Shown: positions 4,475-26,047 of the stretch, piece by piece
How the letters are laid out: every line of letters starts with the position of its first letter
How positions within the stretch are numbered: the first letter of the stretch is position 1
Virus record (IMG/VR): IMGVR_UViG_3300020187_000183
Coordinates: 1 to 26,047 of that record
From: a virus
Direction: 5' to 3' (one strand)
DNA: 26,047 bases
Program-made: the position numbers and the translations under genes
The notes under the pieces: generated by a model
What the model saw: only the letters and a program-made list of their open reading frames with translations
What the model was told of the DNA's origin: nothing
The model's database searches: none

Positions 4475-4486
4475 TATTTATAATAA
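4475..4486 (+). promoter_or_regulatory. Putative late promoter motif TATTTATAATAA (core-protein operon)
   Basis: This is an exact copy of the recurrent 12-mer in the 36-nt gap between the portal and the next gene, ending 12 nt before the ATG. It probably drives the five-gene run ending at the terminator at 7795. Confidence 0.6.
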
Positions 4487-4498
4487 ATCCTAGTAGGA

Positions 4499-10958: not shown

Positions 10959-10970
10959 TATGTATAATAA
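10959..10970 (+). promoter_or_regulatory. Putative promoter motif TATGTATAATAA (phoH)
   Basis: This G variant of the recurrent 12-mer begins 2 nt after the terminator T-run and ends 21 nt before the phoH start. Confidence 0.55.
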
Positions 10971-10991
10971 ACAATTAAATGTTATCCTTTT

Positions 10992-12980: not shown

Positions 12981-13552
12981 TGGCATTATACGGAGAAGCA
13001 AGAGATATAAGTTTCTTTAGAAACGTAAATAGGGAATTAATGGCTAACATTATTTCCCAACAATGTGTTTATTACAAATACGATCTTGCTGAAACTAAAG
13101 TTAACCTATATGGTGAAGCTTCTAAAGAAAAATTTTATCATCCTCCTGTATTATTAAATTGTTTAATTGAAAGAGATGATCAAGTTTACCCTGAAAGTGA
13201 TATTAATATTAATTTTAATTGGAATATTACCTTTAGATTTTTAAGAGATGATTTATTAGATAGGGGTAAAGATTTTAATGAAAATTTCCAATTTTCTAAT
13301 AGATATGGAGCTAATTTAGTTCCTGAAGTAGGGGATATTATAGTTTATAATAAAGGATATTATGAAGTATTTAATACAAATGCTAACCAATATTTTGTAG
13401 GTAAAAATCCTGATTATGATTATAAAGATGATAATGGAAATAACCCATTTGGAGATACAGACTTAGAAGATTTTGGTTCTAGCATCTCAATAATAGTTAG
13501 AACTACCAACATCCCAGCTGATAAGGCGGGTATAACATTAGAAAGATTTTAA
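12980..13552 (+). CDS. gp14: Neck protein (gp14-like)
   Basis: This 190-residue protein lies between the gp13-like and gp15-like genes, with TAATG overlaps on both sides. The N-terminus (MALYGEARDISFFRNVNREL) contains a YYKYDL segment, and a YGEASKEKFY segment may correspond to the YxxPDLIFGEDL region of T4 gp14. The middle is aromatic and Asn-rich, with EVGDIIVYNKGYYEV (about 115-129), a pattern resembling the GDLIYFPMDNSLFEI stretch of T4 gp14. It is shorter than T4 gp14 (256). The likely role is the head-tail joining collar. Homology is judged by eye, so confidence is moderate. Confidence 0.62.
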   Translation: MALYGEARDISFFRNVNRELMANIISQQCVYYKYDLAETKVNLYGEASKEKFYHPPVLLNCLIERDDQVYPESDININFNWNITFRFLRDDLLDRGKDFNENFQFSNRYGANLVPEVGDIIVYNKGYYEVFNTNANQYFVGKNPDYDYKDDNGNNPFGDTDLEDFGSSISIIVRTTNIPADKAGITLERF

Positions 13553-14529
13553 TGGCTAAGAATAGCAGAAAACCAGTCCCTAAATCCCAAAAACAAATAA
13601 GTACGGGATTACAAACACCCTTTGATCCTAGGGTGGGTAACCCTAATGGGGCTGACGAATATTCTGTCAACCCCGATATTAATCAATCTGGTATTCCCTT
13701 TAACCGCTCAGAAAAATTATCTCAGAAAGGAGATACATACAAACAATTTGCTGTAGGATTAGAAGATATAGATGAATCTTTATTTTATTATTTTAATGAA
13801 GTAATTAAACCTTTTGTATTCCAAAATGGAGAACGTATTCAGGTACCATTAATTTATGGTAATCCGGAAAGATGGGTACAAATCCAAAAACAAGGTTTTT
13901 ATAGAGATAAATCAGGTGCTATTATGATGCCTATTATAGTAGCAAAAAGAGATAGTATTTCTCGTAATAGAGCATTACCTACTAAAATTGATGCCCAAGC
14001 CTCACAGATTTATTCTTCTTGGCAAAAATCATATAACGAAAAAAACTTTTATTCTAATTTTAATGTATTAAATAATAGGATACAAACTAAACAATTTATT
14101 ACAAATGTTGTTCCTGATTATATTAATCTTCAATATAGTGTAGTTATCCAAACTTATTATATGGATCAACTTAATAAAATTGTTGAGGCAATTAACTACG
14201 CATCTGATTCATATTGGGGTGATCCTGAACGTTTTAAATTTAAAGCTACTATTGATGGATTCCAGAATGCTGTTACTTTAACAGATGGTACAGAAAGAGC
14301 TGTTAAGAGTACATTTAATATTAATATGTATGGATATATAGTTCCAGATGTGATACAAAAGGATTTAAATTCTGTTAAAAAATATAATGAAAAATCAAAA
14401 ATTATATTTTCTATGGAAACTACCTCAAATCCTGAAATATTTATGCCTGACCCACAAACAGCACCTGATGGGAGAACTCGTATGAATGATAATATAGCTA
14501 CCCGTAAAAGAATAAATACAGATGAGTAA
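13552..14529 (+). CDS. gp15: Proximal tail sheath stabiliser (T4 gp15-like)
   Basis: The 325-residue terminator protein would cap tail tube and sheath and dock to the neck. Three segments align by eye with T4 gp15: residues 94-113 (ERIQVPLIYGNPERWVQIQK against a RVPITYASKEHF-type segment), 196-216 (YSVVIQTYYMDQLNKIVEAI) and 256-266 (FNINMYGYIVP). An N-terminal extension of about 75 residues, polar and Pro/Gln/Asn-rich, precedes the conserved core. The C-terminus is polar with DPQTAPDGRTR. It overlaps its upstream neighbour by 1 nt and its downstream neighbour by 8 nt. This gene anchors the neck assignments of the two genes before it. Confidence 0.82.
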   Translation: MAKNSRKPVPKSQKQISTGLQTPFDPRVGNPNGADEYSVNPDINQSGIPFNRSEKLSQKGDTYKQFAVGLEDIDESLFYYFNEVIKPFVFQNGERIQVPLIYGNPERWVQIQKQGFYRDKSGAIMMPIIVAKRDSISRNRALPTKIDAQASQIYSSWQKSYNEKNFYSNFNVLNNRIQTKQFITNVVPDYINLQYSVVIQTYYMDQLNKIVEAINYASDSYWGDPERFKFKATIDGFQNAVTLTDGTERAVKSTFNINMYGYIVPDVIQKDLNSVKKYNEKSKIIFSMETTSNPEIFMPDPQTAPDGRTRMNDNIATRKRINTDE

Positions 14530-14824
14530 CATAAGATTTTTAGATAATGTTTTAGTAACATCACCCGTAGCGGCTTCCGATGCTGTAGGTGGTTCCTTCC
14601 CTAGAATAATATTTTCTGGGGAAACAAAAACGGTATCTGCTAACACTAATAGTTATGCATTTGAAGTATTTAATTTAGGTACTATCAATATTAATGCTGG
14701 TACTGCTGTAACTGTAGGTGGTCAAACTGTCTTCTCTCATGGGGTTTTAAAAGTTGAACAATTACTTTCAAATCAAGGAACCCTCAATATAGGAGGTATT
14801 CTTGTAATAGGTGATGTTATTTAA
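14522..14824 (+). CDS. Small beta-rich hypothetical protein
   Basis: The 100-residue protein is rich in Val, Ile, Thr, Asn and Gly. Short alternating strands (TININAGTAVTVGGQTVFSHG; GTLNIGGILVIGDVI) suggest a small beta-solenoid or beta-sandwich. No catalytic motif, signal or membrane segment is visible. It begins 8 nt inside the gp15-like gene and ends 37 nt before the first repeat-fibre gene. It could be a tail or neck decoration, a fibre-associated protein or a fibre tip, but nothing in the sequence decides this. Confidence 0.7.
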   Translation: MSNIRFLDNVLVTSPVAASDAVGGSFPRIIFSGETKTVSANTNSYAFEVFNLGTININAGTAVTVGGQTVFSHGVLKVEQLLSNQGTLNIGGILVIGDVI

Positions 14825-14861: not shown

Positions 14862-16454
14862 GTGGCTCAAATTAATCTTACAAACACAGGCACAGCAGGA
14901 ATAGCAACCCCAGAAAATGGGGTTATTGCTGTTTTTTCTAACACTGCCGACAATGGAAAATTATATTATAAATACGCTGATGGAACTATAACAGAGGTTG
15001 CCTCTGGTGGTGGTGGAGGTACTGGTGGTTCATCTGGTACTTCAGGTTCATCTGGTACCTCAGGCTCATCAGGTACTTCAGGTACAGGTTCATCTGGTAC
15101 TTCAGGCTCATCAGGTACTTCAGGTACAGGTTCATCTGGTACCTCAGGCTCATCAGGTACTTCAGGTGATGGTACTTCAGGTACATCAGGTAGTTCAGGA
15201 ACCTCTGGTTCTTCAGGTACATCAGGACAAGCAGGAACTTCAGGTTCAAGTGGTTCATCTGGTAGCTCTGGTTCATCTGGTACTTCCGGATTAGGTTCTT
15301 CAGGTACATCCGGCTCATCGGGTAGTTCAGGCTCATCGGGTAGTTCAGGCTCATCAGGTACAAGTGGTTCATCTGGTACATCTGCTCCAGGTATAACATC
15401 AGGTACTTCAGGTACAAGTGGTTCATCAGGCTCATCGGGTTCATCAGGCTCATCGGGTTCATCAGGCTCATCAGGTTCGTCAGGCTCATCTGGTACTTCA
15501 GGTAATTCAGGAACTTCAGGTTCATCGGGTTCATCGGGCTCATCAGGCTCATCGGGTTCATCAGGTTCATCTGGTACATCAGGAGATGGTACTTCAGGTA
15601 CTTCAGGTTCATCGGGCTCATCAGGTTCATCAGGCTCATCAGGTTCATCAGGTACATCAGGTCAAGCTGGTACTTCAGGTAGTTCAGGTACCTCTGGTAC
15701 AGGTTCAGCTGTAGGTGTAACAGATGGTAGTACAACAGTTAGTAGTGTAAGTACTATTGAATTTACATCAGGTGCTACAGTAACTAACGGTGGTAGTGGT
15801 ACTGCTGAAGTTGCAATCTCTGGTGGTGGAGGTGGTGTTTCTACAGTCCCTGCTAATTCTGCTAGATATACAATGTATAATACTGCAGATATTTCTATCC
15901 AAGCATACTCTACAGGTACTATATATGCGGGTCTATCTTGGAGTAGATCAGGTACAACTGTAACACTTACATCAACAGCACATGGTTTATCAACAGGTAA
16001 TTTTATTGTAGTTCAAGATGGTTCAGATTCACAATATTATGTTACAGTTACAGCTACTGATACTAATACACTAACTTATACTTCAGCTACTAGTGGTACA
16101 GCATCAGGTACAGATGGTGCTTATTTTGCTGCTTTTGCTATTTCAGGAACCCCTACAGATGCTGGGTATACTATTACAGCTCCAGCAGCAGGTTTACCCC
16201 AGTGTATTTCGTTAAATGGTACAGTCTCAGAAAGCAATGGTGGTTCAACTACGATTACTCTCCCTTCAGAAGGGTTTGGTATTAATTCCTCATCTCAATT
16301 ATTTAACATCCCAGCAGTAACAGTAGCAAATGCTGCTGCCGGTACTTCATCTAATGGAGGTAAAGCAAAAGTTGATACTTCCTCACCATTTACTAGTTTA
16401 GTAGTTGAAGGTTTAATATCTTTAACTAAAACTATGTATCACTGTTCATTTTAA
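14862..16454 (+). CDS. Repeat-bearing tail fibre-like protein 1 (GTS/GSS triplets)
   Basis: The 530-residue protein starts at GTG (MAQINLTNTGTAGIATPENG), a type of N-terminus common in phage fibre or structural proteins, with no ribosome binding site. Residues 1-48 form a small beta domain. After a poly-Gly hinge, residues 56-280 are glycine-first triplets of Ser and Thr with two GQA units, one proline (SAPG) and register breaks at GTG, GDG and GLG. Residues 299-326 form a beta-motif (IEFTSGATV, ending AEVAISGGGGG) also seen before the repeats of the next gene. The remaining about 200 residues are a Thr/Ser/Ala-rich beta domain with a STAHGLSTGNFIVV motif typical of phage tail proteins. The likely role is a short fibre or spike, with the C-terminus as receptor-binding or trimer tip. 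Confidence 0.85.
   Translation: MAQINLTNTGTAGIATPENGVIAVFSNTADNGKLYYKYADGTITEVASGGGGGTGGSSGTSGSSGTSGSSGTSGTGSSGTSGSSGTSGTGSSGTSGSSGTSGDGTSGTSGSSGTSGSSGTSGQAGTSGSSGSSGSSGSSGTSGLGSSGTSGSSGSSGSSGSSGSSGTSGSSGTSAPGITSGTSGTSGSSGSSGSSGSSGSSGSSGSSGSSGTSGNSGTSGSSGSSGSSGSSGSSGSSGTSGDGTSGTSGSSGSSGSSGSSGSSGTSGQAGTSGSSGTSGTGSAVGVTDGSTTVSSVSTIEFTSGATVTNGGSGTAEVAISGGGGGVSTVPANSARYTMYNTADISIQAYSTGTIYAGLSWSRSGTTVTLTSTAHGLSTGNFIVVQDGSDSQYYVTVTATDTNTLTYTSATSGTASGTDGAYFAAFAISGTPTDAGYTITAPAAGLPQCISLNGTVSESNGGSTTITLPSEGFGINSSSQLFNIPAVTVANAAAGTSSNGGKAKVDTSSPFTSLVVEGLISLTKTMYHCSF
15027..15701 (+). repeat. GTS/GSS triplet array in fibre gene 1
   Basis: About 75 tandem 9-nt units encode Gly-(Thr/Ser)-Ser. Synonymous codons vary (TCA, TCT, TCC, TCG, AGT, AGC; GGT, GGC, GGA), so the peptide is more uniform than the DNA. 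The phase stays in multiples of three throughout. Confidence 0.95.
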
Positions 16455-16473
16455 AAAAATAAAATTAAATTAT

Positions 16474-16502
16474 AAAAGCCTCCCGTTTGGGGGGCTTTTT
16501 TT
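16474..16502 (+). terminator. Rho-independent terminator after fibre gene 1
   Basis: AAAAGCCTCCC (16474-16484) pairs with GGGGGGCTTTT (16489-16499), with one G-T wobble, around a GTTT loop. The T-run covers 16496-16502. Confidence 0.93.
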
Positions 16503-16504
16503 AA

Positions 16505-16516
16505 TATTTATAATAA
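16505..16516 (+). promoter_or_regulatory. Putative late promoter motif TATTTATAATAA (giant fibre gene)
   Basis: This is an exact 12-mer starting 2 nt after the terminator T-run. It ends 55 nt before the start codon at 16572, leaving room for two leader hairpins. Confidence 0.6.
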
Positions 16517-16520
16517 ACCC

Positions 16521-16542
16521 CTGTTTGGAAAGTGAAAAACAG
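16521..16542 (+). promoter_or_regulatory. Shared fibre-leader hairpin, copy 1
   Basis: CTGTTT (16521-16526) pairs with AAACAG (16537-16542) around GGAAAGTGAA. Nearly the same sequence (CTGTT-GGACAGTGAA-AACAG) occurs at 23503 before the next fibre gene and not before other genes in the window. Immediately downstream, GTATTAT-TTA-ATAATAC (16542-16558) is a second perfect stem-loop. Confidence 0.45.
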
Positions 16543-16571
16543 TATTATTTAATAATACAATTATAATATAG

Positions 16572-19500
16572 ATGTCACAACAATTATTTTTAGGAAAAAT
16601 TAGTTTAGGTCAAGATGCTAATCAAACTAATTTTATAACATTTCAAGGTACTACGGTAGTAGGTTCTGATAGAGTAACTGCTATTTCAACTGGTACTTCA
16701 AAATTTAGAGTAGGCCAAACTATTACTACTGTAGGTAGTGCATTTGCGTCAAATCCTACAATATTATCTATTATTAGTAATACTGAAGTTGAAGTAGATC
16801 AAAATGCAACAACTAGTAGAACAGGTATTTTAGGTTTAAATGCTGGAACAGATTCTTACTACCTTTCAGGTAGTTTTACAGATCCTACCAATAAAAATAC
16901 AGTCCTTGCTGTTACAGGTAGTGATGATGCTGATTTTGAAGGAAATGAATGGGCTTGTATTATTCCCTCTATGGACGAAAATGGAACAGCACTCCCTGGT
17001 GTGTTCCATGTATATGATATTACTTCTGTAGTTGATAGAGATAATAGTTCAGCAGCAATAGATTTTTTCGTTAAATACGGAGAAAGTGGATCTGAAGCTG
17101 ATTATAATCAATATGTAGATACTGGTCAAAGAGTATATGGTTTAGTCCAAAGATCTACTTTAGAAGATTTATCCCCTTCAGTTAGTAAAGGGATTTCAGG
17201 CTTAAATGATCTCCCTGGGGGTATAGAAGTTGCAGGTTTAAATATATTAGTTACAGATTATTTAGATAATTTTACTTTAACAGATATTTACTATACAGGT
17301 TCAGAAGTTTTAATTAATACCCAAAACATGAACTTTACAGGTTCTGGTGTTGAAGTAACAACTTCAGGTTCAGAAGGAGTATTAGTAACTATAGAAGGTG
17401 GTTTAGCTGAAATTCCAGTATCAGCAAGTGATGCTGGAGTTGGTTTAGCAACAGAATTTAATTTTAGTGGCTCAGGAGTAGATGGAGTTACTATTTCAGG
17501 CGGAATCGCCACCGTAGAAATCTCAGGTGGTGGAGGTTCAGGCACTTCAGGCTCTTCTGGTACAAGTGGAACTTCAGGCTCATCTGGTACTTCAGGTAAT
17601 GGTACATCAGGTACATCAGGTTCTTCAGGTACTAGTGGTTCTTCAGGTACATCAGGAGATGGAACTTCAGGTACATCAGGTTCATCAGGTACTTCAGGTA
17701 GCTCAGGTACCTCAGGTAATGGTACTTCGGGTACATCGGGTTCATCAGGAACAAGTGGTTCTTCAGGAACAAGTGGTTCTTCAGGAACTTCAGGTACTGG
17801 TACTTCAGGTACTTCAGGTACTTCAGGTACTTCAGGTACTTCAGGCTCATCTGGTACTTCAGGTAGTTCAGGAACATCAGGTTCATCAGGTACTTCAGGA
17901 TTAGGTAGTTCAGGTACCTCAGGTAGCTCAGGTACTTCTGGTAATGGTACATCTGGTACATCGGGTTCTTCAGGTACATCAGGTAGTTCAGGCACATCAG
18001 GTTCTTCAGGTACATCAGGAGATGGTACATCCGGTACTTCAGGAACAAGTGGTTCTTCAGGAACTTCTGGTTCATCAGGTTCATCAGGTACTTCAGGCAC
18101 TGGTACTTCAGGTACTTCAGGTACTTCAGGTACTTCAGGTTCATCAGGAACCTCAGGTAGTTCAGGAACTTCAGGTACATCAGGTTCATCAGGTACTTCA
18201 GGAACAAGTGGTTCTTCAGGAACAAGTGGTTCTTCAGGAACTTCTGGTTCATCAGGTACTTCAGGCACTGGTACTTCAGGTACTTCAGGTACTTCAGGTT
18301 CATCAGGAACCTCAGGTAGTTCAGGAACTTCAGGTACATCAGGTTCATCAGGTACTTCCGGTACATCAGGTTCATCAGGTACAAGTGGATCATCAGGTAC
18401 TTCAGGTAATGGCACTTCAGGCACATCAGGCTCATCAGGTACATCAGGTTCATCAGGTTCATCAGGTACTTCCGGTACATCAGGTTCATCAGGTACTTCC
18501 GGTACATCAGGTTCATCAGGTACTTCCGGTACTTCCGGTACATCAGGTACAAGTGGATCATCAGGTACTTCAGGTAATGGCACTTCAGGTACATCGGGTA
18601 CATCAGGCTCATCAGGCTCATCAGGCACATCAGGCTCATCAGGTACATCAGGTTCCTCAGGTACATCAGGTAGTTCAGGAACTTCAGGTACATCAGGTAG
18701 TTCAGGTACATCCGGTACTTCAGGTAGCTCAGGTACTTCTGGTAATGGTACTTCAGGTTCAAGTGGTACATCAGGTACATCAGGTTCTTCAGGTACATCA
18801 GGAGATGGAACTTCAGGTACATCAGGTTCATCAGGTACATCAGGCTCATCAGGTACAAGTGGAACATCAGGTTCTTCAGGAACTTCAGGTAATGGTACTT
18901 CAGGTACATCAGGTTCATCAGGAACAAGTGGTACATCGGGTACATCAGGTTCTTCAGGTACTAGTGGTTCTTCAGGTACATCAGGAGATGGAACTTCAGG
19001 TACATCAGGTTCATCAGGTACCTCAGGCTCATCAGGTACTTCAGGTTCAGGAACTTCAGGCACATCAGGCACATCAGGTTCTTCAGGTAGTTCAGGCACA
19101 TCAGGTTCTTCAGGTAGTTCAGGCACATCAGGTTCTTCAGGTAGTTCAGGTACAAGTGGATCATCAGGTACTAGTGGATCATCTGGTACATCAGGTTCAT
19201 CAGGAACTTCAGGTTCAGGTACATCAGGATCATCGGGTACATCAGGTACTTCAGGTAGCTCAGGTACTTCAGGTAGCTCAGGTACTTCAGGTAGCTCAGG
19301 TACTTCAGGTAGCTCAGGTTCATCTGGTACATCAGGAACATCAGGTTCCTCGGGTACATCAGGTTCTTCTGGAACATCAGGTTCAGGTACTTCTGGTACT
19401 AGTGGCTCAAGTGGTAGTTCAGGCACAAGTGGTAGTTCAGGTACCTCAGGAAATGGTGGAACCGCTGGTACTTCAGGTTCATCTGGTACATCAGGTTCCT

Positions 19501-22500
19501 CGGGTACATCAGGTTCATCAGGTACTTCAGGATTAGGTAGCTCAGGTACCTCAGGTAGCTCAGGTACTTCTGGTAATGGTACATCAGGAACAAGTGGTTC
19601 TTCAGGAACAAGTGGTTCTTCGGGCTCCTCAGGTACCTCAGGTAATTCAGGTACTTCAGGTTCATCAGGTACATCAGGTACATCAGGTTCTTCAGGTACT
19701 AGTGGTTCTTCAGGTACTTCAGGAACAAATGGAACTTCAGGTACTTCAGGTACAGGTACTTCAGGTACTAGTGGCTCAAGTGGTAGTTCAGGTTCTAGTG
19801 GTTCATCAGGTACTTCTGGTGATGGTGGAACTGCTGGTACTTCAGGTACATCAGGATCTTCAGGTACATCAGGTTCATCTGGAACTTCTGGTGTTTCAGG
19901 TGTTGATGGTGTTGCGGGTACAGGAGGTTCATCAGGTACTTCAGGTACATCAGGTAATGGTACTTCAGGTACATCTGGTACAAGTGGTTCCTCAGGTACT
20001 TCAGGTTCATCAGGCTCATCAGGCTCATCAGGAACTTCAGGTTCCTCAGGTACTTCAGGTTCATCAGGTTCATCAGGAACTTCAGGTAGCTCAGGTTCTA
20101 GTGGCTCATCAGGTACATCTGGTAATGGTACATCAGGTACTTCAGGTAGTTCTGGTTCTTCAGGTACTTCAGGAAATAGTGGAACATCAGGTTCTTCAGG
20201 TAGTTCAGGTTCTTCAGGTACCTCAGGCTCTTCAGGCACCTCAGGCTCTTCAGGTACCTCAGGCTCAAGTGGTAGCTCAGGTACTTCAGGCTCAAGTGGT
20301 AGTTCAGGTACCTCAGGAATAGGTACTTCGGGAACATCAGGCTCATCTGGTACATCAGGCTCATCTGGTACATCAGGCTCATCAGGCTCATCAGGTTCAT
20401 CAGGCTCATCAGGTTCATCAGGCTCATCAGGCTCAAGTGGTAGCTCAGGTACTTCAGGAAGCGGTACTTCTGGTACTTCAGGTTCATCAGGTACTTCAGG
20501 AACTTCTGGTTCCTCAGGAACTTCAGGCTCATCAGGTACTTCAGGTTCATCAGGTACTTCAGGAACTTCTGGTTCCTCAGGAACTTCAGGCTCATCAGGT
20601 ACTTCAGGCTCAAGTGGTAGTTCAGGTACCTCAGGAATAGGTACTTCGGGAACTTCAGGTAGTTCAGGTACATCAGGATCATCAGGTTCTTCAGGTAGTT
20701 CAGGTACCTCAGGTTCATCAGGTACTTCAGGAACTTCTGGTTCCTCAGGCTCAAGTGGTAGCTCAGGTACTTCAGGAAGCGGTACTTCAGGTACATCAGG
20801 GTCATCAGGTACTTCAGGAACTTCAGGTAGTTCAGGTACATCAGGATCATCAGGTTCTTCAGGTAGTTCAGGTACCTCAGGTTCATCAGGTACTTCAGGT
20901 AGTTCAGGCTCAAGTGGTTCATCAGGAACTTCAGGCTCAGGTACTTCAGGTACTAGTGGATCATCAGGAACTTCAGGTTCTTCAGGTAGTTCAGGAACTT
21001 CAGGTTCCTCGGGTACGTCAGGTTCCTCAGGTACGTCAGGTTCATCTGGTAGCTCAGGTAGTTCAGGTTCTTCAGGTACCTCAGGCTCAAGTGGTAGTTC
21101 AGGTACCTCAGGAATAGGTACTTCAGGAACATCAGGTAGTTCAGGTACCTCAGGTTCATCAGGTAGTTCAGGTACTTCAGGAACATCAGGTAGTTCAGGT
21201 ACCTCAGGTTCATCAGGTACCTCAGGCTCAAGTGGTAGCTCAGGTACTTCAGGAAGCGGTACTTCAGGTACATCAGGGTCATCAGGTACTTCAGGCAGCT
21301 CAGGTTCATCAGGTTCAAGTGGTTCATCAGGAACAAGTGGTACATCGGGTACATCAGGTTCTTCAGGTACAAGTGGTTCATCAGGTTCTTCTGGTTCTTC
21401 AGGTACAAGTGGTTCATCAGGTTCTTCTGGTACTTCAGGTATAGGTTCATCAGGTACTAGTGGTACTTCAGGTAGTTCAGGTTCATCAGGTTCATCAGGT
21501 TCTTCAGGTTCATCAGGTTCATCGGGTTCCTCAGGTTCATCAGGTTCATCAGGTTCATCAGGTACTTCAGGCTCAGCTGGTACGTCAGGTTCATCTGGTA
21601 CATCAGGCAGCTCAGGCAGCTCAGGCAGCTCAGGCAGCTCAGGCAGCTCAGGCTCTTCAGGTACTTCTGGATCAGCTGGTACTTCAGGCTCATCAGGTAC
21701 TTCAGGCTCAAGTGGTTCAAGCGGTAGCTCTGGTAGTTCAGGTTCTTCAGGTTCATCAGGTACATCAGGAAGCGGTACTTCTGGTACATCTGGTTCATCA
21801 GGCACTTCAGGATCATCTGGTACTTCAGGTTCATCGGGTACTTCTGGTACGTCAGGTTCATCAGGTACTTCAGGCTCATCTGGTAGTTCAGGTACATCTG
21901 GTTCTTCTGGTACTTCAGGCTCATCAGGTTCTAGTGGTACTTCAGGTATAGGTTCATCGGGTACTAGTGGTACATCTGGTTCATCAGGTTCATCTGGTAG
22001 TTCAGGCTCATCTGGTAGTTCAGGTTCATCAGGTACTTCAGGCTCATCTGGTACTTCAGGCTCATCTGGTACTTCAGGAACTTCTGGTTCTTCAGGTTCA
22101 TCTGGTAGCTCAGGTAGCTCAGGTAGCTCAGGTAGCTCAGGTTCATCAGGTACATCAGGTTCAGCTGGTACTTCAGGTACAAGCGGTAGCTCAGGTAGCT
22201 CAGGCTCATCTGGTAGTTCAGGTTCATCTGGTACATCAGGTAGTTCAGGTTCATCTGGTACATCAGGTAGCTCAGGTTCATCAGGTAGCTCAGGCTCATC
22301 TGGTAGTTCAGGTTCATCAGGTAGTTCAGGTACTTCAGGTTCATCGGGTACAGCAGGAACTTCAGGTTCATCTGGTAGTTCAGGTAGCTCAGGTAGTTCA
22401 GGTAGTTCAGGTAGCTCAGGTTCATCAGGTACATCAGGTTCTTCTGGTACTTCAGGTATAGGTTCCTCAGGTACTAGTGGTACTTCAGGCAGCTCAGGCT

Positions 22501-23405
22501 CATCAGGCTCTTCAGGCTCTTCAGGCTCTTCAGGCTCTTCAGGCTCATCAGGTACTTCAGGTTCATCAGGCTCATCTGGTAGCTCAGGTTCATCAGGTAC
22601 TTCAGGATCTTCTGGAACTTCAGGTTCATCAGGTTCATCAGGTTCATCAGGTTCTTCAGGTTCATCAGGTTCTTCAGGCTCTTCAGGCACTTCAGGCTCA
22701 TCTGGTAGCTCGGGTAGTTCAGGTTCATCTGGTTCATCAGGTAGTTCTGGTACTTCAGGTGTAATTAATGTTTCATCTTCAGGAAATAATAGAGTATTAA
22801 CTGATATTGATGGTTCAAATGCTACTGCTGAAGAAAACTTAACTTTTGATGGTAATGAATTATTAGTAACAGGTACTATTATAACAACAGGTAGTTTACC
22901 AATTACTGCTGATGATAGTGGGGTTTACTTTAATAATGAAGCCTCAGGTTCTCATATTAGACATAATACACTAGCAGAACTAGAAATTTCATCTAGTGTA
23001 GGGATTAATTTTGTAGGTACTGTAAACCAAGGTATTGGTGCTAGTGGTGGTTCTTTAGTACAAACTCAAACTTTAAGTACTACAATCCCAGCAAATGGAC
23101 TTATAGATGTTCTATCTGTAGCTAATATAACTATGAATTCTACTGATTATTTAGGTTTAAAAGCTGATTATGCTTTAGAAACTCAAATAGGAGGTAGAAG
23201 ATTTGGTACAATAGAAGTAATATTTAATAGTACAATTGCAAGTTTTACAGATAACTCAACACGGGATGTTCCTACTAATGGTACTCAAGGAGATGAATTT
23301 GCAGTACAAGTACAATCTGGTGAATTAGAAGTATTATTTGGTGCTTTTGGAGGTCATGGTAGTGTAGATTTAGCCATGTCATTTAAATTAATAGCAGTTC
23401 CTTAA
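16572..23405 (+). CDS. Giant repeat fibre protein 2 (2,277 residues, GTS/GSS triplets)
   Basis: Residues 1-323 are a unique N-terminal region. It starts MSQQLFLGKISLGQDANQTN and has a VTAISTGTSKFRVGQTITTV beta segment, a mixed middle, and two copies of a beta-motif at 253-277 (MNFTGSGVEV, ending VTIEGG) and 296-321 (FNFSGSGVDGVTI, ending VEISGGGG). Residues 324-2062 are almost pure Gly-(Thr/Ser)-Ser triplets with about thirty single-residue register breaks (GN, GD, GT, GL, GS, GI) and a few variant units (GTA, GVS, GVD). The C-terminal 215 residues start VINVSSSGNNRVLTDIDGSN, a type of head-binding or fibre-tip module seen after repeats in phage fibres, and end in a beta domain. The protein probably forms a very long fibre or whisker. 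The promoter, two leader hairpins and terminators on both sides make it its own transcription unit. There is no frameshift or stop anywhere in the array. Confidence 0.88.
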   Translation: MSQQLFLGKISLGQDANQTNFITFQGTTVVGSDRVTAISTGTSKFRVGQTITTVGSAFASNPTILSIISNTEVEVDQNATTSRTGILGLNAGTDSYYLSGSFTDPTNKNTVLAVTGSDDADFEGNEWACIIPSMDENGTALPGVFHVYDITSVVDRDNSSAAIDFFVKYGESGSEADYNQYVDTGQRVYGLVQRSTLEDLSPSVSKGISGLNDLPGGIEVAGLNILVTDYLDNFTLTDIYYTGSEVLINTQNMNFTGSGVEVTTSGSEGVLVTIEGGLAEIPVSASDAGVGLATEFNFSGSGVDGVTISGGIATVEISGGGGSGTSGSSGTSGTSGSSGTSGNGTSGTSGSSGTSGSSGTSGDGTSGTSGSSGTSGSSGTSGNGTSGTSGSSGTSGSSGTSGSSGTSGTGTSGTSGTSGTSGTSGSSGTSGSSGTSGSSGTSGLGSSGTSGSSGTSGNGTSGTSGSSGTSGSSGTSGSSGTSGDGTSGTSGTSGSSGTSGSSGSSGTSGTGTSGTSGTSGTSGSSGTSGSSGTSGTSGSSGTSGTSGSSGTSGSSGTSGSSGTSGTGTSGTSGTSGSSGTSGSSGTSGTSGSSGTSGTSGSSGTSGSSGTSGNGTSGTSGSSGTSGSSGSSGTSGTSGSSGTSGTSGSSGTSGTSGTSGTSGSSGTSGNGTSGTSGTSGSSGSSGTSGSSGTSGSSGTSGSSGTSGTSGSSGTSGTSGSSGTSGNGTSGSSGTSGTSGSSGTSGDGTSGTSGSSGTSGSSGTSGTSGSSGTSGNGTSGTSGSSGTSGTSGTSGSSGTSGSSGTSGDGTSGTSGSSGTSGSSGTSGSGTSGTSGTSGSSGSSGTSGSSGSSGTSGSSGSSGTSGSSGTSGSSGTSGSSGTSGSGTSGSSGTSGTSGSSGTSGSSGTSGSSGTSGSSGSSGTSGTSGSSGTSGSSGTSGSGTSGTSGSSGSSGTSGSSGTSGNGGTAGTSGSSGTSGSSGTSGSSGTSGLGSSGTSGSSGTSGNGTSGTSGSSGTSGSSGSSGTSGNSGTSGSSGTSGTSGSSGTSGSSGTSGTNGTSGTSGTGTSGTSGSSGSSGSSGSSGTSGDGGTAGTSGTSGSSGTSGSSGTSGVSGVDGVAGTGGSSGTSGTSGNGTSGTSGTSGSSGTSGSSGSSGSSGTSGSSGTSGSSGSSGTSGSSGSSGSSGTSGNGTSGTSGSSGSSGTSGNSGTSGSSGSSGSSGTSGSSGTSGSSGTSGSSGSSGTSGSSGSSGTSGIGTSGTSGSSGTSGSSGTSGSSGSSGSSGSSGSSGSSGSSGSSGTSGSGTSGTSGSSGTSGTSGSSGTSGSSGTSGSSGTSGTSGSSGTSGSSGTSGSSGSSGTSGIGTSGTSGSSGTSGSSGSSGSSGTSGSSGTSGTSGSSGSSGSSGTSGSGTSGTSGSSGTSGTSGSSGTSGSSGSSGSSGTSGSSGTSGSSGSSGSSGTSGSGTSGTSGSSGTSGSSGSSGTSGSSGTSGSSGTSGSSGSSGSSGSSGTSGSSGSSGTSGIGTSGTSGSSGTSGSSGSSGTSGTSGSSGTSGSSGTSGSSGSSGTSGSGTSGTSGSSGTSGSSGSSGSSGSSGTSGTSGTSGSSGTSGSSGSSGSSGTSGSSGSSGTSGIGSSGTSGTSGSSGSSGSSGSSGSSGSSGSSGSSGSSGSSGTSGSAGTSGSSGTSGSSGSSGSSGSSGSSGSSGTSGSAGTSGSSGTSGSSGSSGSSGSSGSSGSSGTSGSGTSGTSGSSGTSGSSGTSGSSGTSGTSGSSGTSGSSGSSGTSGSSGTSGSSGSSGTSGIGSSGTSGTSGSSGSSGSSGSSGSSGSSGTSGSSGTSGSSGTSGTSGSSGSSGSSGSSGSSGSSGSSGTSGSAGTSGTSGSSGSSGSSGSSGSSGTSGSSGSSGTSGSSGSSGSSGSSGSSGSSGSSGTSGSSGTAGTSGSSGSSGSSGSSGSSGSSGSSGTSGSSGTSGIGSSGTSGTSGSSGSSGSSGSSGSSGSSGSSGTSGSSGSSGSSGSSGTSGSSGTSGSSGSSGSSGSSGSSGSSGSSGTSGSSGSSGSSGSSGSSGSSGTSGVINVSSSGNNRVLTDIDGSNATAEENLTFDGNELLVTGTIITTGSLPITADDSGVYFNNEASGSHIRHNTLAELEISSSVGINFVGTVNQGIGASGGSLVQTQTLSTTIPANGLIDVLSVANITMNSTDYLGLKADYALETQIGGRRFGTIEVIFNSTIASFTDNSTRDVPTNGTQGDEFAVQVQSGELEVLFGAFGGHGSVDLAMSFKLIAVP
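17541..22757 (+). repeat. 5.2-kb GTS/GSS triplet array in fibre gene 2
   Basis: This is a continuous array of 9-nt Gly-X-Ser units, interrupted by 6-nt units that break the triplet register. Higher-order and recent duplications are visible: GGTACTTCA x5 at 17799-17843, an 18-bp unit at 19254-19316, GGCAGCTCA x5 at 21606-21650, GGTAGCTCA x4 at 22104-22139 and GGCTCTTCA x4 at 22506-22541. There is no proline in the array. Assembly length should be treated with caution in such repeats. Confidence 0.95.
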
Positions 23406-23430
23406 TAATTAATTAAGATAAAAAAAATAG

Positions 23431-23460
23431 GTGCCCCTCGTTGAGGGGCACTTTTATTTT
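23431..23460 (+). terminator. Rho-independent terminator after the giant fibre gene
   Basis: GTGCCCCTC (23431-23439) pairs perfectly with GAGGGGCAC (23443-23451) around a 3-nt GTT loop, followed by TTTTATTTT. Confidence 0.92.
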
Positions 23461-23474
23461 CTAAAGTATTTTAA

Positions 23475-23486
23475 TATGTATACCTG
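23475..23486 (+). promoter_or_regulatory. Putative late promoter motif TATGTATACCTG (third fibre gene)
   Basis: This keeps the TATGTATA core, 14 nt after the terminator and 47 nt before the start codon at 23534. Confidence 0.45.
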
Positions 23487-23502
23487 ATACGACGGTGTCA
23501 AC

Positions 23503-23522
23503 CTGTTGGACAGTGAAAACAG
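23503..23522 (+). promoter_or_regulatory. Shared fibre-leader hairpin, copy 2
   Basis: CTGTT (23503-23507) and AACAG (23518-23522) flank GGACAGTGAA. It matches the leader element at 16521 almost base for base over about 20 nt. An alternative shorter pairing, CTGT with ACAG at 23510-23513, is also possible. Confidence 0.45.
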
Positions 23523-23533
23523 AAAAATAAACC

Positions 23534-26047
23534 ATGGCAAACGAATTTTTTATTAGGAAAGGTATAATTGTATCTGGCTCTGTAGCAGAAATTATACCCC
23601 CCATCTCAGCTTCTATTATCTCAGCTTCAGCTGATATTGAAGCAGCAAACATTATAACCCCAGGAGATATAACTATATCTGGAAGTATTATTGTAGAAAA
23701 TTTTACTACAGGTACTTCTAATGAAGTTGTAGTATATAATAATACAACTAAAGAATTAGAGGTTAAAACTAATGCCTCTTCATCAGGTACCTCAGGTACC
23801 TCAGGTACTTCAGGTACTTCAGGTAGTTCAGGCTCTTCAGGCTCTTCAGGCTCATCAGGCTCATCAGGTTCATCTGGTACAAGTGGTAGTTCAGGTTCTA
23901 GCGGTTCATCAGGTACTTCAGGTAACTCAGGTACTTCAGGTACTTCAGGTTCAAGTGGTTCATCAGGTTCAAGTGGTTCATCAGGTAGTTCAGGTTCCTC
24001 AGGTACAAGTGGTTCTTCGGGAACATCAGGTTCTTCAGGAACTTCAGGTATAGGCTCTTCAGGTACTTCAGGTACTTCAGGTTCAAGTGGTTCATCAGGT
24101 TCAAGCGGTAGCTCAGGTTCATCGGGTTCATCAGGTACTTCAGGCTCTTCAGGTACATCAGGTTCATCAGGCTCTTCAGGTACATCAGGTTCATCAGGCT
24201 CATCAGGCTCATCAGGTAGCTCAGGCTCAAGTGGTAGTTCGGGTTCATCAGGTACTTCAGGAGTAGCAGGTACTTCAGGAACTTCAGGCTCATCGGGTAC
24301 AAGTGGTTCATCAGGTAGTTCAGGTTCATCAGGCTCATCAGGTTCATCAGGCTCATCAGGTACATCTGGTTCATCAGGTACTTCAGGTTCATCAGGTAGC
24401 TCAGGCTCAAGTGGTAGTTCAGGTTCATCAGGAACTTCAGGTTCTTCTGGTACCTCTGGTAGTTCAGGTACTTCAGGTTCTAGTGGTTCATCAGGCTCAA
24501 GTGGTAGCTCTGGTTCATCAGGCAGCTCGGGTTCATCAGGTAGCTCAGGTACTTCTGGTACAACAGGTACTTCAGGTACTAGTGGTTCATCAGGTAGTTC
24601 AGGCTCTTCAGGCTCATCAGGCTCATCAGGCTCATCAGGTTCATCAGGTACCTCGGGTTCATCAGGCACCTCGGGTTCATCAGGTACATCAGGTAGTTCA
24701 GGCTCATCAGGTTCATCAGGTTCAAGTGGATCAAGCGGTAGTTCAGGTTCAAGCGGTACATCAGGTTCAGCTGGAACATCAGGCACTAGTGGCTCAAGCG
24801 GTAGTTCAGGTTCATCAGGCTCAAGCGGTAGCTCTGGCTCATCAGGTACTTCGGGTTCATCAGGTACCTCAGGTAGTTCAGGTTCAAGTGGTTCATCAGG
24901 CTCATCTGGTAGCTCAGGCTCATCAGGTACAAGTGGTTCAGCAGGTACCTCAGGTACAAGTGGTTCAAGCGGTAGCTCAGGTTCATCAGGTAGCTCAGGC
25001 TCAAGTGGTAGTTCGGGTTCATCAGGCACTAGTGGATCAAGTGGTACATCTGGTTCTTCAGGTAGTTCAGGCTCAAGCGGTAGCTCAGGTTCATCAGGTT
25101 CATCTGGTACTTCGGGTTCTTCAGGAACAAGCGGTAGTTCAGGTTCATCAGGTTCATCAGGTAGTTCAGGCTCATCTGGCAGCTCTGGTACTTCAGGTTC
25201 CTCAGGAACAAGTGGTTCATCAGGTACCTCAGGAAGTTCAGGCTCAAGTGGTAGTTCAGGTTCTTCAGGTACTTCTGGTTCCGCCGGTACTTCAGGTTCA
25301 TCAGGTACCTCAGGTTCTTCAGGTTCATCAGGTAGCTCAGGCTCATCAGGTAGTTCAGGTTCCTCAGGAACAAGTGGTTCATCAGGTACCTCAGGAAGTT
25401 CAGGCTCAAGCGGTAGCTCAGGTTCATCTGGTAGCTCAGGCTCTTCAGGAACTTCAGGTTCATCAGGTACATCAGGTTCTTCGGGCTCATCAGGTAGCTC
25501 CGGCTCAAGTGGTAGTTCAGGTTCTTCAGGAACAAGTGGTTCATCAGGTACCTCAGGAAGTTCAGGCTCAAGCGGTAGCTCAGGTTCATCTGGTAGCTCA
25601 GGAAGTTCAGGTACATCAGGCTCATCAGGAACAAGCGGTTCATCAGGTAGTTCAGGTACTTCAGGCTCTAGCGGTTCAAGCGGTACTTCAGGTTCTTCAG
25701 GTACAAGTGGATCATCAGGTTCTTCAGGTACATCAGGCTCTTCAGGAAGCTCAGGTACATCAGGTTCTTCTGGTACTTCAGGTAGCTCAGGTTCATCAGG
25801 TACTTCAGGTAGCTCAGGTTCATCAGGTACTTCAGGTTCTTCAGGTACAAGTGGATCATCGGGTTCATCAGGTACATCAGGAAGTTCAGGTTCATCAGGT
25901 ACTTCAGGCAGCTCAGGTACTTCAGGCTCAAGTGGTTCATCAGGTACTTCAGGCTCATCAGGTAGCTCAGGTACCTCAGGTAGTTCAGGCTCATCAGGTA
26001 CTTCAGGTACTCCAAGTTATACAGCAATTTGGAAATATGATACTGAT
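23534..26047 (+). CDS. Repeat fibre protein 3 (partial, runs off the window)
   Basis: An ATG at 23534 opens a frame that stays open for 838 codons to the last base, so the 3' end is missing. The N-terminus MANEFFIRKGIIVSGSVAEI, followed by alternating Ile/Ser/Ala segments and GDITISGSIIVENFTTGTSN, is typical of phage tail-fibre anchors. Residues 85-824 are Gly-(Thr/Ser)-Ser triplets with very few changes (single GNS, GVA, GTT and some GSA units) and only one register break (GIG, near 24047). The array is therefore much more regular than in the preceding gene. After it, GTPSYTAIWKYDTD begins the next domain. The gene has its own promoter-like motif and shares the leader hairpin of the giant fibre gene. 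It probably encodes a second long fibre with a different tip. Confidence 0.88.
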   Translation, partial: MANEFFIRKGIIVSGSVAEIIPPISASIISASADIEAANIITPGDITISGSIIVENFTTGTSNEVVVYNNTTKELEVKTNASSSGTSGTSGTSGTSGSSGSSGSSGSSGSSGSSGTSGSSGSSGSSGTSGNSGTSGTSGSSGSSGSSGSSGSSGSSGTSGSSGTSGSSGTSGIGSSGTSGTSGSSGSSGSSGSSGSSGSSGTSGSSGTSGSSGSSGTSGSSGSSGSSGSSGSSGSSGSSGTSGVAGTSGTSGSSGTSGSSGSSGSSGSSGSSGSSGTSGSSGTSGSSGSSGSSGSSGSSGTSGSSGTSGSSGTSGSSGSSGSSGSSGSSGSSGSSGSSGTSGTTGTSGTSGSSGSSGSSGSSGSSGSSGSSGTSGSSGTSGSSGTSGSSGSSGSSGSSGSSGSSGSSGTSGSAGTSGTSGSSGSSGSSGSSGSSGSSGTSGSSGTSGSSGSSGSSGSSGSSGSSGTSGSAGTSGTSGSSGSSGSSGSSGSSGSSGSSGTSGSSGTSGSSGSSGSSGSSGSSGSSGTSGSSGTSGSSGSSGSSGSSGSSGSSGTSGSSGTSGSSGTSGSSGSSGSSGSSGTSGSAGTSGSSGTSGSSGSSGSSGSSGSSGSSGTSGSSGTSGSSGSSGSSGSSGSSGSSGTSGSSGTSGSSGSSGSSGSSGSSGSSGTSGSSGTSGSSGSSGSSGSSGSSGSSGTSGSSGTSGSSGSSGTSGSSGSSGTSGSSGTSGSSGSSGTSGSSGSSGTSGSSGTSGSSGSSGTSGSSGSSGTSGSSGTSGSSGSSGTSGSSGSSGTSGSSGTSGSSGSSGTSGSSGSSGTSGSSGSSGTSGTPSYTAIWKYDTD
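23786..26005 (+). repeat. 2.2-kb GTS/GSS triplet array in fibre gene 3
   Basis: About 247 triplet units are nearly uninterrupted. Serine codons alternate widely (TCA, AGT, AGC, TCT), with many GGTTCAAGTGG and GGTTCAAGCGG variants that are rarer in the earlier arrays, so the array has its own DNA-level history. Confidence 0.95.

Follow-up and report, generated by a model that had tools for sequence, protein, structure and literature searches.

The window analysed here, a 26,047-base IMG/VR virus record (IMGVR_UViG_3300020187_000183) that is probably a piece of a larger virus genome, carries three neighbouring genes built largely of Gly-(Thr/Ser)-Ser triplets (Table 1). Upstream of them lie genes for a terminase, a portal, a head protease, a major head protein, a PhoH-like protein and a head-tail adaptor. 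The portal protein shares 61% identity with that of Flavobacterium phage immuto, the nearest cultured relative, and 49.5% with that of Microcystis phage Mel-JY01. The source is an uncultured T4-like phage that has immuto among its relatives. No host genome came up when genome contigs were scanned with the 406-aa neck gene, and tRNA and Rfam scans gave no matches.

Table 1. Positions of the neck and fibre features in the window.
Feature	Position	Strand	Remarks
325-aa neck gene	13552-14529		labelled gp15 in the preliminary description
100-aa gene	14522-14824		between the 325-aa neck gene and gene 1
Fibre gene 1, 530 aa	14862-16454	+	GTG start; open reading frame and translation, PF01391
Gene 1 Gly-X-Ser array, 224 aa	15027-15698	+
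Gene 1 C-terminal tip	15699-16451	+	predicted beta-rich (AlphaFold2, Foldseek)
Terminator-like hairpin 3' of gene 1	16474-16499	+	consensus scan only
TTTATAATAAA element	16507-16517	+	upstream of gene 2; candidate phage late promoter
Fibre gene 2, 2,277 aa	16572-23405	+
Gene 2 N-terminal region, 323 aa	16572-17540	+	first 274 aa conserved
Gene 2 Gly-(Thr/Ser)-Ser array, 1,740 aa	17541-22760	+
Gene 2 C-terminal tip	22755-23402	+	opens with the post-array motif NRVLTDIDGSNATAEENLTFDG
Terminator-like hairpin 3' of gene 2	23429-23453	+	consensus scan only
Fibre gene 3, 838 aa visible	23534-26047	+	truncated by contig end
Gene 3 Gly-X-Ser array, 741 aa	23786-26008	+	652 residues of unbroken triplets within

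The preliminary description placed the fibre genes downstream of gp15. The 100-aa gene, however, intervenes before gene 1. The name gp15 itself found no support, since PHROG, Pfam and PDB profile searches with the 325-aa product gave no significant match; only gene order, namely its position after the match to head-tail adaptor Ad2, suggests this identity. Elements like TTTATAATAAA stand a little upstream of several gene starts (53-63, 2582-2592, 4477-4487, 10961-10971 and 16507-16517), and the window has 14 such sites with at most one mismatch, where 2.1 would be expected. Possibly, TTTATAATAAA acts as a phage late-promoter element.

The arrays, which span 8.1 kb in total, had previously been given 225, 1,739 and at least 740 residues, and these sizes are correct to within one residue. 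All three match the Pfam Collagen family PF01391, with E = 1e-20 for gene 1, 2e-190 for gene 2 (617 bits against a cut-off of 27.2) and 1e-105 for gene 3. The gene 2 array has 37 single-residue breaks of the type Gly-x-Gly. The contig stops inside gene 3, so that three is a minimum for the number of fibre genes. An open frame of 1,799 aa also runs antisense through the gene 2 array (17291-22690, minus strand); it probably arises from the small range of codons in use and is not a gene.

The arrays are real coding sequence under selection at the protein level. All 919 glycine positions retain glycine, although the third base of the codon varies (heterozygosity 0.42–0.44). The Y position is serine in 852 of 868 triplets, the X position is serine or threonine in 859 of the 871 positions counted, and threonine is almost wholly restricted to X. 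Serine at Y is drawn from both codon families, TCN and AGY; because single-step routes between them cross other residues, this argues for selection on serine. According to Tandem Repeats Finder, the units of the main arrays match each other at merely 62–72% in DNA, yet the protein is nearly invariant. The longest exact repeat measures 89 bp, compared with about 42 in gene 2 when independent codon choice was simulated, which indicates that some duplication is recent (for instance the copies at 18111 and 18270, 159 bp apart) and that the majority of the copies are old.

These repeat statistics also bear on the possibility of assembly artefacts, which the preliminary description named as what would refute it, or of repeats collapsed or expanded so that the true lengths are very different. 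The window is a metagenome contig with just 39 bp left after the array of gene 3, and the locus end cuts 18 of the 51 arrays of at least 600 aa. However, a common 150-bp read is longer than the longest exact repeat, only 56 of 10,906 77-mers recur, and long arrays were also assembled from other samples (1,968 residues in locus L007, at least 2,093 in L009 and at least 2,219 in L058). We therefore regard an artefact as very unlikely.

Comparison with related loci revealed a modular architecture. Residues 1–274 of gene 2 share 31–34% identity with proteins in L011, L012, L017, L058 and L218, and this conserved N-terminus ends in FxGSGVxVxxSGSxGVxVxIxGG, which is the array junction in the relatives. 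Behind this one N-terminus, array length ranges from 0 in L012 and L017, where the same junction runs directly into another domain, through 249 residues in L218, 342 in L011 and the 1,740 of the window, to at least 2,219 in L058. The N-terminal 46 aa of gene 1 are found with 57–80% identity at the same position in ten loci, some of which belong to one virus (80% in L006, 61% in L007). In related contigs, the 325-aa neck gene is followed by the 100-aa gene and these 46 residues in conserved form, while the array and tip differ. In the nearest relatives by neck gene (L006, L007 and L009) the second fibre gene is a different one, and hence fibre genes appear to be exchanged; in L007 and L009 there are again about 2,000 array residues. 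The gene 1 homologue of L006 (11312-12991) contains several short arrays with linker modules between them; two of these modules have the same sequence (AGGSTNEVLQKASNTDYDYQWATFSS). A 'NASS' motif ahead of arrays proved not to be a general feature (1 of 248).

The loci thus show a conserved N-terminal anchor, an array at a fixed junction, a variable tip and a neighbourhood of structural genes, the features of a phage tail or host-recognition fibre. Together with the Pfam matches and matches to PHROG families 5073 and 6320 (tail fiber; E as low as 5e-166), the related loci support the earlier assignment of these genes as fibre genes on collagen-type triplets, and a fibre role of all three is likely.

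The tips offer some hints about function. The AlphaFold2 model of the gene 1 tip (mean pLDDT 74.5) gave its best Foldseek matches in the PDB to the endosialidases of phi92 and K1F (best E 4.8e-3); in BFVD the best match was a protein of an uncultured phage (E 4e-16), and a protein named 'Endosialidase, beta barrel domain' matched with E 1.7e-4. In this model the tip holds a small barrel that weakly resembles the endosialidase beta-barrel of phage tailspikes. The gene 2 tip shares 49% identity with L011 across 151 aa, and its opening motif also comes after arrays in other loci. Downstream of some arrays lies a motif like NRVxTxDGxxxxAExNLTFDG, the AExNLxF core of which occurs in 15 of 219 downstream flanks against 0.5 expected from shuffles. 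Neither the tip nor the N-terminus of gene 2 matched a solved structure by sequence, the structure model of the gene 2 N-terminus was poor (pLDDT 49), and the end domains of genes 1 and 2 found no relatives in INPHARED.

Collagen-like proteins of E. coli prophages form true triple helices that melt at 42 °C without hydroxyproline (PMC3368898). This precedent, the strict glycine spacing, the protein-level selection and the distinct end domains favour a trimeric collagen-type shaft with a receptor-binding tip, and judged from its sequence the array would more probably than otherwise form a trimeric triple helix. A stable helix is not assured, because the arrays are nearly free of proline and carry threonine at X. 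The gene 1 array has one proline and those of genes 2 and 3 have none; lysine and arginine are absent. Bacterial collagens, by contrast, typically have proline at X (19–31%) and threonine at Y (PMC8968730), and the proline-rich make-up that is usual for them, if not strictly defining, is not seen in the gene 2 and gene 3 arrays. Searches of the PDB gave no structure of such a sequence; the matches there were ordinary collagens, alike in glycine spacing. A match to a 'spindlefibril' chain was set aside as a Gly-Ala-Pro repeat whose likeness is limited to this spacing. The preliminary description estimated a shaft of about 0.5 micrometres for gene 2. Its arithmetic is right (1,740 × 0.286 nm = 498 nm), and this half-micrometre length would hold solely for a continuous triple helix.

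Alternatively, the array might be a flexible, largely disordered Gly/Ser/Thr linker, an entropic tether or brush that joins the end domains without any collagen helix. Sequences of this type are in common use as flexible linkers, and the proline-free arrays of genes 2 and 3, with their mostly small polar residues, would suit such a role. Yet a disordered linker does not need glycine at exactly every third position, and not one of the 919 glycines was lost despite the varying synonymous sites; nor would it confine threonine almost entirely to X or keep the gene 3 array in perfect phase for 652 residues. This explanation is thus unlikely. The preliminary description also considered folding into polyglycine-II bundles, which would yield a compact spike or brush. 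A polyglycine-II fold is known from the glycine-rich adhesin domains of phage S16 gp38, and some fibre genes of relative G002 are richer in GG motifs. However, adhesins of the gp38 type are defined by glycine-dense motifs separated by reversing loops, whereas the window arrays contain neither: X and Y carry no glycine, regular turns for reversing direction are absent, and unbroken triplets run on for up to 652 residues. Such bundles fit poorly, and we consider them very unlikely.

Where the contigs of relatives extend further, the fibre genes occupy an island between the neck and tail-sheath genes that also holds glycosyltransferases. Three relatives whose contigs reach the tail sheath (G001, G002 and G009) have several tandem Gly-X-Y genes upstream of the sheath gene; glycosyltransferases come after these genes, and 2OG-Fe(II) oxygenase or PhyH genes stand close by. 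One G009 protein ends in an S74 chaperone domain, as found in tailspikes. Counted over distinct records that reach the sheath (G017-G019 taken as one), all 4 records with arrays have PF00534 glycosyltransferases between the arrays and the sheath, while of the 16 records without arrays 1 has them between neck and sheath (Fisher p = 0.001), although the records are related and not independent. Enzymes of related glycosyltransferase type were found at 10 of 120 array loci from a separate, unrelated pattern scan compared with 0 of 120 random loci, a modest enrichment. The p values for glycosyltransferases overstate the case, since the records share ancestry. The window itself ends before the glycosyltransferase region.

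One might imagine a half-micrometre, proline-free triple-helix shaft of Gly-Thr-Ser and Gly-Ser-Ser whose serines and threonines are O-glycosylated by the glycosyltransferases of the same island, its reach being tuned by gain and loss of triplets. We consider this elaboration doubtful; it is equally open that the glycosyltransferases modify the host surface instead. Hydroxylation of the collagen was dropped as an idea: oxygenases were not enriched close to arrays (2 array loci compared with 1 random locus), and the gene 2 and gene 3 arrays have no proline or lysine. A genome search with PF13640 missed the G001 oxygenase that hmmscan found, so that absence in that search is no evidence. In G001, a 776-aa protein (L201 9126-11456) carries GT4- and GT25-like domains, and the last 250 residues of this protein resemble a 2OG-Fe(II) oxygenase, a likeness for which Pfam gave no confirmation. 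One relative (G027:C1) has two adjacent tail-sheath matches, at 16489-16995 and 18661-19143.

Taken together, we favour the following explanation as a whole, with a probability of roughly 0.65. The genes, at least three, would encode host-recognition fibres. Each protein would consist of an N-terminal anchor on the virion, a Gly-X-Y shaft placed at a constant junction, and a tip at the C-terminus, with three chains probably wound into a collagen-type triple helix. Array length would then set the distance of the tip from the virion, and the tip would bind a glycan or protein of the host surface. The arrays may grow when blocks of triplets are duplicated in frame and shrink when such blocks are lost, with selection holding each third residue as glycine. 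Should the shafts be helical, these phages would carry adhesins longer than the T4 virion, with lengths that vary greatly behind one anchor. The shafts, which range between related genes from 0 to more than 2,000 residues, are worth microscopy, and the natural length series offers a way to study the effect of fibre reach on adsorption. The near absence of proline also poses a biophysical question, namely whether a collagen helix is possible without it.

How unusual is this architecture? The fetched viral loci contained 285 non-redundant Gly-X-Y arrays with a median of 229 residues, of which 11 had at least 1,740; among the 199 arrays with both flanks, three reached 1,740, the gene 2 array included. 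Most of these loci had been fetched by array or neck-gene searches and are not a random sample. Random viral loci contained clear repetitive arrays in 2 of 120 cases (L290 and L342), and two more scanner matches resemble chance. A protein search of phage records with the array found no matches, probably owing to low-complexity masking, and a distant DNA search did better. The unusual virion architecture announced in the preliminary description is therefore a weaker case than was claimed, given these counts and a 735-kb phage with three consecutive genes of the same kind. Fibres of this collagen type were known before and are fairly common among viruses; complete arrays of such length are rare, not unique.

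Several known systems share parts of this design. The profiles of PHROG 5073, 6320 and 1806 (tail fiber, collagen like minor tail) match the array regions of the window. These matches lie in the repeats, whereas the end domains match none of the three, which points to a shared type of repeat rather than to descent. Collagen-like shafts or linkers also occur in the adhesion devices of S. aureus phage 80alpha (FibU) and streptococcal phages (Tal), but there the segments are short (about 30 residues in FibU) and the hosts Gram-positive (PMC7048315, PMC9437275). EPclA and EPclB of EHEC prophages are phage fibres with an N-terminal domain, a collagen repeat without hydroxyproline and a C-terminal trimerising domain, as in the window; they differ in an adjoining alpha-helical coiled coil, in their other end domains, in belonging to E. 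coli prophages and in size, the whole protein being about 47 kDa with its tag, so that the collagen domain is far shorter (PMC3368898). Pelagimyophages, for which collagen-repeat structural proteins have been reported, have a host recognition cluster that, like the island of the window's relatives, is variable, lies among structural genes and combines tail fibres with glycosyltransferases; it sits between VrlC and gp14 instead of between neck and sheath genes (PMC7029224). The 735-kb uncultured phage LR756501 likewise has three consecutive Gly-Thr-Ser array genes, one with 2,339 array residues in two blocks, carried in a frame of 2,816 aa (L350 17895-26345, minus strand); its N-terminal regions differ from those of the window, and the phage is much larger.
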